28,574 nucleotides of DNA from a virus, in the IMG/VR virus record IMGVR_UViG_3300020125_000134, positions 1 through 28,574 of that record, one strand, 5' to 3'. Under the pieces are notes generated by a model, which saw only the letters and a list, made by a program, of their open reading frames with translations, searched no databases and was not told where the DNA came from. The position numbers were made by a program, and so were the translations under genes. The first letter of the stretch is position 1, and each line of letters starts with the position of its first letter. This document shows positions 5,014-8,960 of the stretch, piece after piece.

Positions 5014-5064
5014 CAACTTTTTATTTGAAAACATATCAATAAACGAGTATGCTTTATGAATTTT

Positions 5065-5086
5065 GTAAGTTAAAGGTGTAAGTTAC
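5065..5086 (+). promoter_or_regulatory. GTAAGTT direct-repeat motif upstream of virion gene
   Basis: GTAAGTT occurs twice here (starting at 5065 and 5079) in the leader of the 5128 gene. Closely related arrangements occur at 10449-10465 and 19705-19721, each upstream of another probable abundant virion gene. This suggests a shared regulatory element, either a DNA-binding site or part of the mRNA leader. Confidence 0.4.
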
Positions 5087-5087
5087 C

Positions 5088-5106
5088 ATGCCCCAAAGGG
5101 CATTTT
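5088..5106 (+). terminator. Short hairpin plus T-run between 4980 and 5128
   Basis: ATGCCC pairs with GGGCAT around a CAAA loop, followed by TTTT. The six-base-pair stem is perfect, but the T-run is short, so it could be a weak or partial terminator of the upstream operon, or a hairpin in the 5' leader of the gene starting 22 bases later that protects or regulates it. Confidence 0.45.
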
Positions 5107-5127
5107 CAGATTAAATAGGAAACTAAA

Positions 5128-5877
5128 ATGTCTCTAAAACTATTACAACCAGGCACTCAGCCTTTAGGTCAGTTTGACGGTTATGACTCTGATGTTCTAA
5201 CCCTCAAGGGTGGTGAAGTGGTATCTTTCGCCCAAGTAACTACTTCCGGTCAACCAGGAGTATCCTCCGGTGGTCTCGACCAAGCAGCATATGATGTATT
5301 TGACGGTTACGTCAATGCAACTGGCGTTCTCAAGCGTCCAGTAGTATCTCGTAGATACGATGGTAACGCAGGTAGCGTATCCGCTTCCAGCCGTCCATTG
5401 ATGCTATCTGACGATGGTATTACAGGATACGGAACTCTATTCGGCTCAGTAGTCGGTGGAACCGTAGGTCAACAGGTCAACGGACCAACCACCTTCACTG
5501 GTGCAATCCTTGGACCACACACTGCAACCGGCTCTGGCAAGGTAACTTGCTGGGATAAGCCAGGTCTCTACGCTGTCTCCCTAGACGCAGTAGACACCAA
5601 CGCTGTCTCTGGTTTGCAACCAACCAACACCACATTGGCCGTTGGAACTGGACTAACCTTCACTAGCTTGGGTCTATTGACTCCAGTTGGTTCTGCTGGC
5701 GCACTAGGTGGCGCTCCAAAGGTAGCTAACCTAGTAGAGTTCAACACTAACCAGTCTTTGGTAACCACTCCAAACTACTTGGTTGCTGCTTTGAACAGCC
5801 CATCTGGTAACGTATCATCGGTTCAACCAAGAGCCTTTGCATTCGCAACCATCTACTTCGCACCACCAACCGCCTAA
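5128..5877 (+). CDS. Probable abundant virion protein (possible head decoration)
   Basis: The start has an AGGA eight bases upstream in a long leader. The 249-residue product is rich in Gly, Val, Thr, Ser and Pro and has few charged residues and one Trp (in CWDKPG), as expected of a beta-rich structural protein. Codon choice is strongly biased (many CTA, GTA, AAC and ACC codons), like the capsid gene and unlike the fibre genes at 11919-18996, which suggests very high expression. It directly precedes the capsid gene, separated by a folded RNA element. Position, composition and codon bias suggest a capsid decoration or other high-copy head protein, but no specific family is recognised and a tail protein cannot be excluded. 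Confidence 0.6.
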   Translation: MSLKLLQPGTQPLGQFDGYDSDVLTLKGGEVVSFAQVTTSGQPGVSSGGLDQAAYDVFDGYVNATGVLKRPVVSRRYDGNAGSVSASSRPLMLSDDGITGYGTLFGSVVGGTVGQQVNGPTTFTGAILGPHTATGSGKVTCWDKPGLYAVSLDAVDTNAVSGLQPTNTTLAVGTGLTFTSLGLLTPVGSAGALGGAPKVANLVEFNTNQSLVTTPNYLVAALNSPSGNVSSVQPRAFAFATIYFAPPTA

Positions 5878-5891
5878 CTAGGCTAAGTAAA

Positions 5892-5974
5892 CTTCTCTGG
5901 CCGAGAGGCTGGAGGAGATGCCAAGCGCAAGCTTGTCATTCTCGAAGTCCGAAAGGACCCCTCTCACCCTTTTA
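5892..5974 (+). ncRNA. Three-way-junction RNA element upstream of the capsid gene
   Basis: GAGAGG (5903-5908) pairs with CCTCTC (5960-5965). Inside it are two arms. Arm one pairs GAGATG (5915-5920) with CATTCTC (5937-5943, one bulged T) and CAAGC (5922-5926) with GCTTG (5931-5935) around a GCAA tetraloop. Arm two is GTCC (5947-5950) and GGAC (5955-5958) around a GAAA tetraloop. The unpaired junction bases are CTGGAG, GAA and C. CTCT (5895-5898) can pair with AGAG (5904-5907) instead, excluding the closing stem, so two mutually exclusive folds exist. CCCTTTT follows the closing stem. It lies about 60 bases before the capsid start (AGGAGA at 6015-6020). It may be an mRNA leader element, a processing site or an attenuator. 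I recognise no Rfam family. Confidence 0.55.
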
Positions 5975-6024
5975 ACGTAAGAATATCAAGCTGGTAAGAC
6001 TGGCAAATTTTTCTAGGAGAAACT

Positions 6025-7038
6025 ATGAATATGTTTAGCGGCAAGGGCGAAATTAACGCCTCATCTTTCAAGGATGCATTGCAAGCCTTGGTAAAGTACG
6101 CAGCCATTCTCGAAGAGAATGTCCCTGCAAACCAAGGACTAGCTGGTCAACCAGCGCTGAGCGATGAGAAGCGTGATGAATTGATCACTCGCGCAATCAT
6201 GACTCAAGACGGAAAGATTGCTTTGGCACAGGCCATGGCAAACCCAATCCGTAGAAACCTCGATTACCATGGTATCGCTCGTCGTGCCTTGGTTGTTGAC
6301 CCACTACCACAGGGAGCAATTCCAACTTACGATAGAGATATCGACGTTGCCGCAGTTGTTATCTCTTCCAACGGTACTGGTCCAGAGTCCCGTGTATTCG
6401 GTGACCGTGTAGTTGTACCAGAGTTTGAAATCTACGCGAACCCAACAGTTCGTATCGCTGAAGTCAAGCGTCGTAGATTCAACGTAATCGACAGAGCTGT
6501 TCAAAAGGCACGTCAGGAAATCATGGCTCAAGAAGATGCAAACATCTTTGCCGCCTTGGACGCCGCTGCCTCAGTTGAGAACACTCTAACTGACATCGCC
6601 GATGCAGGTCTTCTAAAGAGAGACTTGGTCGAAATCAAGCAACAGATTGATCGTTGGGACTTAGTAACTACTAAGTACTTCATGAACATCAACGAGTTCA
6701 CTGACATCCTCAAGTGGGGTTCTGGTGGTGGACAAGGTGTTGGTGGTGGTGACTTCGATCCAGTAACTATGAGAGAAGTTCTACAGACCGGTCTATACGC
6801 CCACATCTGGGGTACTGATATCATGGTCAGCAAGATTGTTCCACCTGGAACTATCTACGGTGTAGCCGATCCTGAGTTCGTTGGTGTAATGCCAATCCGT
6901 CAGGACATCGAAGTTCTACCAGCAGACGAGCCAAAGCAATTGAAGCTCGGATGGGTAGTCTCTGAGATTATCGGTATCGCTATCGTCAACCCACGTGGTT
7001 GCGCAGCCGGCCGTAAGTCTGTCGTAATCGGCGCCTAA
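6025..7038 (+). CDS. Major capsid protein, HK97-fold type
   Basis: This 337-residue protein has the makeup of a phage major head protein. A charged helical N-arm (1-60) is followed by a segment with NPIRRNLDYHGIARRALVV and PLPQGAIPTYDRD, a beta strand pair with VPEFEIYANPTVRI, and a long helix with RAVQKARQEIMAQEDANIF that matches the HK97 spine helix in character. A Gly-rich loop lies near 230-240 (GGGQGVGGG), and hydrophobic strands form the C-terminal part. The start has an ideal AGGAGA four bases upstream, and codon choice is among the most biased in the window. It is flanked by a structured leader and a strong terminator, consistent with heavy independent expression. No maturation protease is in view, and the N-terminus shows no obvious cleavage site. 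A related abundant shell protein is the only real alternative. Confidence 0.85.
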   Translation: MNMFSGKGEINASSFKDALQALVKYAAILEENVPANQGLAGQPALSDEKRDELITRAIMTQDGKIALAQAMANPIRRNLDYHGIARRALVVDPLPQGAIPTYDRDIDVAAVVISSNGTGPESRVFGDRVVVPEFEIYANPTVRIAEVKRRRFNVIDRAVQKARQEIMAQEDANIFAALDAAASVENTLTDIADAGLLKRDLVEIKQQIDRWDLVTTKYFMNINEFTDILKWGSGGGQGVGGGDFDPVTMREVLQTGLYAHIWGTDIMVSKIVPPGTIYGVADPEFVGVMPIRQDIEVLPADEPKQLKLGWVVSEIIGIAIVNPRGCAAGRKSVVIGA

Positions 7039-7059: not shown

Positions 7060-7099
7060 GAAATGCCTTCTAGAGAAATCTAGAGGGCATTTCACTTTT
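7060..7099 (+). terminator. Strong hairpin terminator after capsid gene
   Basis: GAAATGCCTTCTAGA (7060-7074) pairs with TCTAGAGGGCATTTC (7079-7093) over 15 base pairs with one G-T wobble, closed by a GAAA tetraloop, followed by ACTTTTC. The stem is long and stable, though the T-run is short. It should end or process the capsid transcript. Confidence 0.8.
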
Positions 7100-7112: not shown

Positions 7113-7664
7113 ATGGATCCCAAGAAACTTCGAAAGCAATACATGCACCTCATGCCCAGTCTGAACAAGGCTATGCAGCACGTGCAGTCTCAGCTTGCAG
7201 ATTTGCCGCCACATGATTTTCTGTTGGAAACCAACTTAAAGCCGTACCTTAGTATCAAGAAGAAAATGCTCCGAGACCGTGAATCCGATCCCAGCATCCT
7301 TCCAGATTTGGCCAGAGGTAGACTTTTCTTTTCTCAAGACTATAACCCTAAAGAGGTTGTAGATTTACTCAAGAAGATATTCCCAGGCCAACTTACAGGG
7401 TCTAAGAAAAAAGACACTAACGATTGCGGACTTGAATATCCTGGAGTAACTGATGTTAATCTGGATATTGATGGAGTCCAATTCGAATTGCAATTAATGC
7501 CATTGAACTATAAAGACTCTCAAGAACTATCTCATCAGATTCATGATCAATTACGTAGTGATAAAGATAAGCTAACTGATGTTCAGAAAGAGTTTTTGAA
7601 GAGTACTCACAATAAACTCTTTAAGGCCCTAGATGTAAAATCCAAGGCCCCAAAGAGCGACTAA
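7113..7664 (+). CDS. RelA/SpoT-like nucleotidyltransferase-fold protein
   Basis: The 183-residue protein matches the layout of a minimal RelA/SpoT (ppGpp synthetase-like) domain. A helical N-terminus is followed by LSIKKKMLRDR (46-56), resembling the SxxxK nucleotide-binding segment; PDLARGRLFF (64-73), with Asp65 where the metal-binding Asp sits and Arg70 following; and YPGVTDVNLDIDG then FELQLMP, with Glu125 where the catalytic Glu sits. The usual GYxSxH G-loop His is replaced by Thr or Asp, so ppGpp synthesis is doubtful. Some small RelA/SpoT-family enzymes instead pyrophosphorylate tRNA 3' CCA ends. It converges on the CCA-adding-type gene, the stop codons overlapping by four bases. There is no clear ribosome site: TATAG ends three bases before ATG, suggesting a leaderless transcript. 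An inactive or non-RelA protein remains possible. Confidence 0.5.
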   Translation: MDPKKLRKQYMHLMPSLNKAMQHVQSQLADLPPHDFLLETNLKPYLSIKKKMLRDRESDPSILPDLARGRLFFSQDYNPKEVVDLLKKIFPGQLTGSKKKDTNDCGLEYPGVTDVNLDIDGVQFELQLMPLNYKDSQELSHQIHDQLRSDKDKLTDVQKEFLKSTHNKLFKALDVKSKAPKSD

Positions 7665-8896
7665 AACTGACGAGCGACTTCTAACAAACGATACTTGGTA
7701 TTACTCTGCGGGTCACGAAGAATCTCCAAGTAACATCCGTCCAAAGCCTTCTTGATTCGAGGCCCAGCCGCCATTCCAGCCGCCAACAGGTCGTCCCCGT
7801 TGATGGCCATTTCCTTGCGAGCTAGGACCACCAATCCCTTGTATTCCTCCAGCAAGCTACCAGATGCCAATCCCATAGGCTCAGTCAAATGTAGAAATTG
7901 ACGGAGGGTCTCTTCCCAAGGGTCGGGGCTATGGTTCTTCAAAGCCGCCATAAAGCTCTTATAGGCAGGAGCCGTATGTTGCTCTTCGAACGTATAGAAT
8001 TGCTCTACCATATTCAAGAGAAATACCACCCTCTTGATCTCCTTGCTGGAGAACTTGAGGTTGATGAGTTCTTCCTGAACCTGTTGAGCTGGAAGCTTGT
8101 TGTATAGAAATGCCAGCTTGGTTTCCAAGGTTCCCGCGCATTGCTCCTGTTGAGAAAGCAATGGAAGCTGCCTTCCCGCCAGAAGCGGGCAAGCAATGTC
8201 CAAAGCTCCAGAATCTCTCAAGAGTTGCAATCCATAAGAAGAGTGCTGAGACATCAGTGTCTTGCTAAGCTCGTCACTGATGCGCTCCTTAGAAACCTTC
8301 TTCAAGGTCTCCAAGCTTTGCTTCATACCCTCGAAAGTGGAAGGATCAACTGCATAGCCGAAGCGTGCAGCGAAACGAGCCACTCTCATGATACGAAGTC
8401 CGTCTTCTTGGAAGCGAACCAAGGGGTTGCCAACTGCTTTAATCACGCCCTCCTTGAGATGTTGAACTCCACCAAAAGGGTCAACAAATCTGTGGGAGAG
8501 TGGGTCATAAGCGATGGCGTTGATGGTAAGGTCTCGTCGAGCCAAGTCTTGTTCCACATTCATGACGAAGAAGACTTCATCGGGTCTACGACCGTCTGAG
8601 TATTCTCCTTCGATTCTGAACGTAGTAACCTCGAAGTGGTTTTCGACACCTTCGCCCATACAGACCGTTACCGTGCCATGTTGCAGGCCGGTTGGAATGG
8701 TCTTAGGGAAAAGCTCCAGGACCCTTTGGGGGCTGGCGTCAGTGGTAATATCCCAGTCCTTGGGCGTCTGCCCCAGGAGAAGGTCTCGCACACATCCGCC
8801 CACAATAAAGGCTTGGTATGAGTTTTCGTTTAATACCCGACATACCTCAATCGCCAAAGGGTGAATAAGGTGCGGGGAAATAGGTCGGTGTTCCAT
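7661..8896 (-). CDS. CCA-adding enzyme / poly(A) polymerase family nucleotidyltransferase
   Basis: This is a class II CCA-adding/poly(A) polymerase family protein, which adds nucleotides to RNA 3' ends, classically CCA to tRNA. Numbering from a GTG at 8905, the motifs are GGCVRD (36-41), DWD (50-52, metal-binding carboxylates), the flexible-loop region FRIEGEYSDGRRPDE (96-110), RRDLTINA (123-130), DPFGG (142-146) and EDGLRIMRVARFAARFG (167-183), the base-selecting motif. A helical tail follows. All key catalytic residues are present, so it is probably active. Length (~411 aa) fits bacterial enzymes without an HD domain. I use ATG 8896; GTG 8905 is equally possible, and neither has a good ribosome site. 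CCA-adding, A-adding and poly(A) activities cannot be separated here. It may repair host or phage tRNAs. Confidence 0.9.
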   Translation of the reverse strand: MEHRPISPHLIHPLAIEVCRVLNENSYQAFIVGGCVRDLLLGQTPKDWDITTDASPQRVLELFPKTIPTGLQHGTVTVCMGEGVENHFEVTTFRIEGEYSDGRRPDEVFFVMNVEQDLARRDLTINAIAYDPLSHRFVDPFGGVQHLKEGVIKAVGNPLVRFQEDGLRIMRVARFAARFGYAVDPSTFEGMKQSLETLKKVSKERISDELSKTLMSQHSSYGLQLLRDSGALDIACPLLAGRQLPLLSQQEQCAGTLETKLAFLYNKLPAQQVQEELINLKFSSKEIKRVVFLLNMVEQFYTFEEQHTAPAYKSFMAALKNHSPDPWEETLRQFLHLTEPMGLASGSLLEEYKGLVVLARKEMAINGDDLLAAGMAAGPRIKKALDGCYLEILRDPQSNTKYRLLEVARQF

Positions 8897-8960
8897 GTCA
8901 AGCACTCTAAAACTTAAAAATTACGTGTCAAGCGGGGCGGCGTGTAATAAAAGGGCATTA

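Follow-up and report, generated by a model that had tools for sequence, protein, structure and literature searches.

An H-type pseudoknot ahead of the major capsid gene in phage-G-like jumbo phages

In phage-G-like jumbo phages the major capsid gene follows a decoration-like gene, and the intergenic leader of the pair carries a cis-acting H-type pseudoknot. Its structure and layout were established by covariation and by comparison of relatives with the same gene order. The element was analysed in a window of 28,574 nt (28.6 kb of a large uncultivated phage), where a reading of the sequence alone (the sequence-only reading) had placed in the capsid leader a structured RNA that no coding gene accounts for; both lines of evidence uphold that proposal. 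Since the pseudoknot is swapped for a terminator and promoter in sister phages, it probably helps to separate and tune the output of the two neighbouring shell genes. A probability of about one half is given to the reading that it is an intercistronic leader element that replaces a terminator and promoter and sets the segmentation, stability or translation of the capsid mRNA. The features of the locus are listed in the table.

Table. Positions of the leader element and flanking features in the window.
Feature	Position	Strand	Remarks
Promoter-like TATCAATAAACGAGTATG before the upstream gene	5034..5051	+	motif type common to all leader classes
Upstream 249-aa structural (decoration-like) gene	5128..5877	+	blastp 50-84% identity in relatives
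Helix A, 5′ strand CUCUGG	5895..5900	+	pairs with 5909-5914; covaries in 33 leaders
Pseudoknot loop 1 (CC)	5901..5902	+	crosses helix B; mostly CC in relatives, few UC/C/U/UU
Helix B, 5′ strand GAGAGG	5903..5908	+	pairs with 5960-5965
Helix A, 3′ strand CUGGAG	5909..5914	+	abuts helix B; covariation
Inserted hairpin H1	5915..5943	+	outer GAGA/UCUC, inner CAAGC-GCAA-GCUUG; outer 4 bp covary
Joint GAA	5944..5946	+	last two A near-invariant
Inserted hairpin H2, GUCC-GAAA-GGAC	5947..5958	+	covaries GUC/GAC, UCC/GGA, CUC/GAG, UUC/GAA
Helix B, 3′ strand CCUCUC	5960..5965	+	pairs with GAGAGG; covariation
A/U-rich single-stranded linker (ACCCUUUUAACGUAAG...)	5966..5989	+	18-28 nt in relatives
Second hairpin GCUGGU-AAG-ACUGGC	5990..6004	+	common to all leader classes
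Capsid-gene ribosome binding site (RBS) AGGAG	6015..6019	+	read from sequence
Major capsid protein gene	6025..7038	+	phrog_2522 major head protein, E 2.9e-81
Terminator-like hairpin 3′ of the capsid gene	7060..7093	+	15-bp stem

The capsid gene product is 53.7% identical to gp27 of phage G. No match to the 249-aa upstream protein was found in Pfam, PHROG or PDB, nor did phage G gp26 match it, so this gene is called decoration-like by its position only. The promoter-like TATCAATAAACGAGTATG, which has its only exact match in the window at the listed site, is presumed to start a two-gene message, and the hairpin behind the capsid gene is presumed to end it. In all of the leader classes described below, a promoter-like motif of the type AATAAnnnA(A/G)TATG and a conserved leader lie 5′ of the upstream gene. 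This gene's own leader (5034-5127) is highly conserved across the classes and runs in the order promoter-like TATCAATAAACGAGTATG, AUUUUGUAAGUUnAGGUGUAAGUnACC, a hairpin AUGCC..GGCAU (5088-5103) and the RBS.

The strand partners of helices A and B were found by aligning the capsid leaders of relatives, 33 of which were segmented by hand, with each segment string checked against its source sequence. The GAGAGG/CCUCUC stem, the arms capped by GCAA and GAAA and the CCCUUUU tail described in the sequence-only reading are where it had placed them, and the helices covary. The arrangement of these parts is another matter. The three-way junction that had been proposed is neither the minimum-energy fold nor the covarying structure, which is a pseudoknot with inserted hairpins; GAGAGG finds its partner CCUCUC 51 nt downstream, and the upstream CTCT, once thought to compete for GAGAGG, belongs instead to CUCUGG, the covarying partner of which is the CUGGAG just after GAGAGG. 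Helix A has no base in common with helix B; the two abut and interlock around a short loop 1, as is characteristic of an H-type pseudoknot. Across the 33 segmented leaders helix B is 5-7 bp long and zero bases separate B from A; loop 1 is usually CC, being reduced to 1 nt in three leaders and extended to 4 nt in one. Within the long loop lie a nearly invariant AA and either one or two hairpins, which covary. Of the hairpins, H1 varies in length and is missing in four leaders (L063, L073, L076 and L367). From this geometry we infer that helix B stacks on helix A across the 2-nt loop, and the adenines of the joint (loop 3) likely lie in the minor groove of helix A.

Covariation among homologous leaders, the lack of which had been named as grounds for abandoning the idea, was found for every helix. 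In a 27-sequence alignment, 96.9% of cells held standard pairs, compared with 81.7% in shuffled controls and 41-62% when partners were slid, a control that leans towards the structure because the segmentation had used it. How many double changes there are, and of which kind, is independent of this structure-guided segmentation. In the same alignment double changes occurred at 14/19 pairs, double-change cells numbered 85 (26 when shuffled) and the covariation score was 0.551 (control, 0.254). Helix A was paired in 95.6% of cells, with double changes at three pairs, and helix B in 99.4%, with double changes at five of its six pairs. Pair 4 of helix B, for example, was A-U in 12 leaders, U-A in 8, G-C in 12 and U-G in 1, and pair 1 of H2 was seen as U-A, G-C, C-G or G-U. 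A tree of the capsid gene, a source independent of the RNA element, shows that pair types changed repeatedly, with up to five purine/pyrimidine flips at a single pair. A purpose-written pseudoknot scan recovered A and B in nearly all aligned leaders. A covariance model built without L063, L064, L073, L076 and L078 recovered all five with the same fold, and it also found a previously unseen leader, L367, again with that fold but with a single inserted hairpin (AUCCUG-CC-GAGGGA-CAGGAU-UAA-(hairpin)-A-UCCCUC). At the level of comparative analysis, these data demonstrate the interlocking-helix structure.

The folding energy of the segment was -31.5 kcal/mol, against a shuffle mean of -23.8 kcal/mol (z -2.24; 6 of 200 shuffles were as good). 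The single-sequence minimum-energy fold consists of three successive hairpins, and for the window's own sequence a non-pseudoknot fold with an extended-A hairpin was computed to be lower in energy; estimated energies of the pseudoknot and non-pseudoknot folds nonetheless differ by less than the error of the model. Two mutually exclusive folds had been suggested; in fact A and B can form together, and only a 2-bp extension of helix A (CC:GG), possible in 26/33 leaders and impossible in 7/33, competes with B. Since the fold energies are comparable, a dynamic equilibrium is possible, though not required.

Several known identities for the element were tried and rejected. The window element had no match in Rfam 15 above the gathering score or at E<=10, and 13 relatives had none within the element at E<=1. 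A hammerhead ribozyme had been entertained from the order of its junction strands; the core CUGANGA ... GAAA is not conserved, CUG(G) is paired within helix A, and the joint varies among GAA, AAA, UAA and GCA. A riboswitch ligand core was discarded, as outside the helices only the joint AA and most of loop 1 are conserved. A recoding pseudoknot (frameshift or readthrough) requires a fixed spacing of 5-9 nt from a slippery site or leaky stop, with an open frame beyond, whereas the spacing here is 9-26 nt; stop codons are moreover repeated, the first in the window being followed closely by another in frame. A 20-codon leader peptide (GGAGGAG-AUG...UAA) has no ATG in L002 and a changed frame in L001. 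Sequestration of the RBS by helix B was likewise rejected, since no more than a few members have CUCCU and the covariation of B is with its own partner strand. Pairing of the 5′ strand of helix A with the downstream GCUGG hairpin is broken in L053 and L033, in which A has changed and the hairpin has not.

A capsid scan of viral contigs yielded 285 relatives, of which 80 loci were kept (89-100% identity; contigs up to 481 kb); two further capsid scans mostly gave the same contigs. With the covariance model, 22 records of up to 481 kb were searched. Those bearing the pseudoknot had one convincing copy per genome, before the capsid gene, and no second convincing copy elsewhere; the class II and class III records among the 22 had no copy. 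In exact-sequence scans of viral contigs the element was found before capsid genes alone; the matches were to other capsid leaders, or to unrelated sequence that lacks it. The leaders with a pseudoknot (class I) share the order 249-aa gene, pseudoknot, A/U-rich linker, second hairpin and capsid RBS. Helix B ends a near-constant 57-63 nt before the capsid ATG, the exception being a composite leader (L039), and the distance from the upstream stop codon to helix A is variable (9-26 nt), with several stop codons clustered between the upstream gene and the pseudoknot.

The linker is A+T-rich in relatives (0.62-0.95). A pyrimidine-rich tail ending in UUUAA is conserved just 3′ of helix B, UUUA or UUUUA is present in 25/26 distinct linkers, and GUAAG is present in 14/26 (0.4 expected from shuffling); the same GUAAG is found in the leader of the upstream gene. 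The third pair of the second hairpin is U.G in 56/58 distinct leaders drawn from all classes. This hairpin lies directly 5′ of the capsid RBS and is also present in a more distant phage (L247). It may serve as an operator of the capsid gene or as an enhancer of translation.

The same upstream gene precedes the capsid gene in many members of three classes that differ in what lies between. The second condition named for abandoning the idea, absence from relatives with this gene order, likewise came out in its favour: related phages of this order do have the element (class I), although classes II and III use other solutions. In class II the gap holds a different, covarying element, in which a hairpin of 11-13 bp is followed by CUAU and then by another hairpin; in class III it holds an intrinsic terminator, mostly accompanied by a promoter that can be recognised. 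Intrinsic terminators were identified in the gaps of 0/27 class I, 0/11 class II and 12/13 class III loci, and promoter-like sites, assigned by a crude pattern, in 9/13 of class III compared with 1/38 of classes I and II together. The class II element had no match in Rfam and no pseudoknot in its consensus fold, which was derived with RNAalifold, a program that cannot show pseudoknots. Conserved UYAA before the hairpin and GAUURA in its loop were noted in class II leaders (L021, L030, L054 and others). In the composite leader (L039, 1-151) a class I pseudoknot is followed in tandem by a class II element, and in six loci (L042, L319, L356, L372, L374 and L380) the upstream gene and a terminator are followed by DNA unrelated to the usual capsid leader. 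Capsids of class II and III phages are up to 97% identical to those of phages with the pseudoknot. The three classes interleave on the capsid tree, requiring 19 changes, at least seven of which are forced by well-supported branches, and sister pairs of classes I and III occur (L078/L080 and L017/L023). As reconstructed on this tree, the leader classes were exchanged repeatedly.

This alternation is the main basis of the functional reading favoured here, in that the element appears to do by RNA what a terminator and promoter do by transcription. The upstream and capsid genes would be transcribed as one message, and the pseudoknot would mark and protect the start of its capsid portion. It might do so as a roadblock and stabiliser beside a cleavage-prone A/U-rich stretch, as a barrier between capsid translation and the ribosomes that reach the end of the upstream gene, or as both. 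A processing signal, one of the roles named in the sequence-only reading, thus belongs to the interpretation favoured here. The pseudoknot would thereby take the place of the sister phages' terminator and second promoter, and capsid output could differ from that of the upstream gene. The exact role may be definition and stability of a 5′ end, insulation from ribosomes or an operator. The near-constant distance from pseudoknot to ATG, beside the variable one to the upstream stop, supports the favoured reading but would also fit a translational operator; the pattern-based promoter assignments and the energy estimates given above weigh against it as well.

Such an operator, modelled on that of T4 gene 32, where the gene's own product binds and represses translation, is the foremost alternative, although it is held only tentatively. 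A phage protein, for which the candidates are the capsid protein, the product of the upstream gene and a single-strand binding protein, would nucleate on the pseudoknot, spread along the linker and repress capsid translation. The layout is very similar to that of T4, with helix B ending 57-63 nt before the ATG and an A/U-rich linker containing UUUUAA. The pseudoknot is, however, absent from class II and III phages with near-identical capsids, so a capsid-binding operator would more likely be the hairpin common to all classes; its presence also tracks the absence of a terminator and promoter, which an operator does not predict. A bolder and doubtful reading, separate from the operator, is that the knot belongs to a new phage RNA family and actively cuts or marks the message, by self-cleavage or by recruiting a phage or host nuclease.

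The knot could alternatively be a ribosome insulator with no role in mRNA processing, keeping ribosomes that complete the upstream gene from slipping on to the capsid start site or becoming coupled to it. Its position shortly after the upstream stop codon and the clustered stop codons there suit this proposal, which we consider unlikely given that the spacing to the stop varies and that to the capsid start is constant. Partial termination at the knot and its CCCUUUU tail, setting the ratio of the two proteins, had been put forward earlier and draws on the conserved pyrimidine-rich tail; it is very unlikely, as no intrinsic terminator was detected in any class I gap, unlike class III, the window tail (ACCCUUUU) has 4 T in its first 8 bases, and capsid protein is needed in large amounts. 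A self-cleaving ribozyme splitting the message between the two genes would substitute directly for a terminator and promoter, and pseudoknotted folds are common among small ribozymes; the failure to match Rfam up to E 10, the unconserved hammerhead core and the few conserved unpaired bases (the joint AA and a loop 1 that is mostly CC) leave this earlier suggestion unsupported and highly improbable. A switch had also been suggested before. One that responds to a ligand or to temperature and alternates between the pseudoknot and extended helix A gains from the near-isoenergetic folds and the competing pairs of most members and is scarcely probable, since some members cannot form the extension, no ligand-type pocket is conserved, the RBS lies outside both folds and, with A and B able to coexist, no switch is required.

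Among described systems the closest layout is the gene 32 operator of T4: its pseudoknot is 67 nt ahead of the start codon, and the unstructured, A+U-rich sequence behind it contains UUAA(A) repeats (PMC3014915). The gene 32 leaders of T4, T2 and RB69, which like the present one belong to phage mRNAs, have an H-type pseudoknot, its helices stacked coaxially, some 60-70 nt before the start and then an A/U-rich single strand (PMC3014915). A 2010 review considered that no viral pseudoknot other than that of T4 gene 32 may be known to act in translational autoregulation (PMC3014915). By our analysis the resemblance is one of layout only: the downstream gene here encodes the major capsid protein rather than a single-strand binding protein, and the present element is intercistronic, with hairpins in loop 3 and a second conserved hairpin by the RBS. 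The preQ1-II and preQ1-III riboswitches are H-type pseudoknots whose long loop accommodates an additional hairpin, as here, but the capsid-leader element has no Rfam match, conserved ligand-type pocket, RBS sequestration or link to queuosine genes. RNase III sites of T7 are intercistronic structures for the processing and stability of phage messages, and share with the element a position between co-transcribed genes (co-transcription here is inferred); they are long duplexes rather than compact pseudoknots. The hammerhead ribozyme also has three helices, and the order CUG / GAA / C is present in the window sequence, but here CUG is base-paired, the joint is not a conserved GAA(A) and the topology is that of a pseudoknot.

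No described capsid-leader pseudoknot was found in the literature that was searched. The class I element is accordingly rated a new RNA family of a general kind, the cis-acting leader pseudoknot, that is already known. To our knowledge, hardly any structured leader RNA that controls capsid synthesis has been described from large DNA phages. At one junction, before nearly identical capsids, the pseudoknot gives way to a hairpin element or to a cassette of terminator and promoter, and these exchanges amount to a natural experiment on how the ratio of two shell proteins is set; a knot that cut or marked the message would, if confirmed, be an interchangeable RNA alternative to a terminator and promoter in the structural operons of jumbo phages. 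Beyond the capsid operon, a gene for a CCA-adding tRNA nucleotidyltransferase (7661-8905; PF01743, E 2e-37) lies on the opposite (-) strand.
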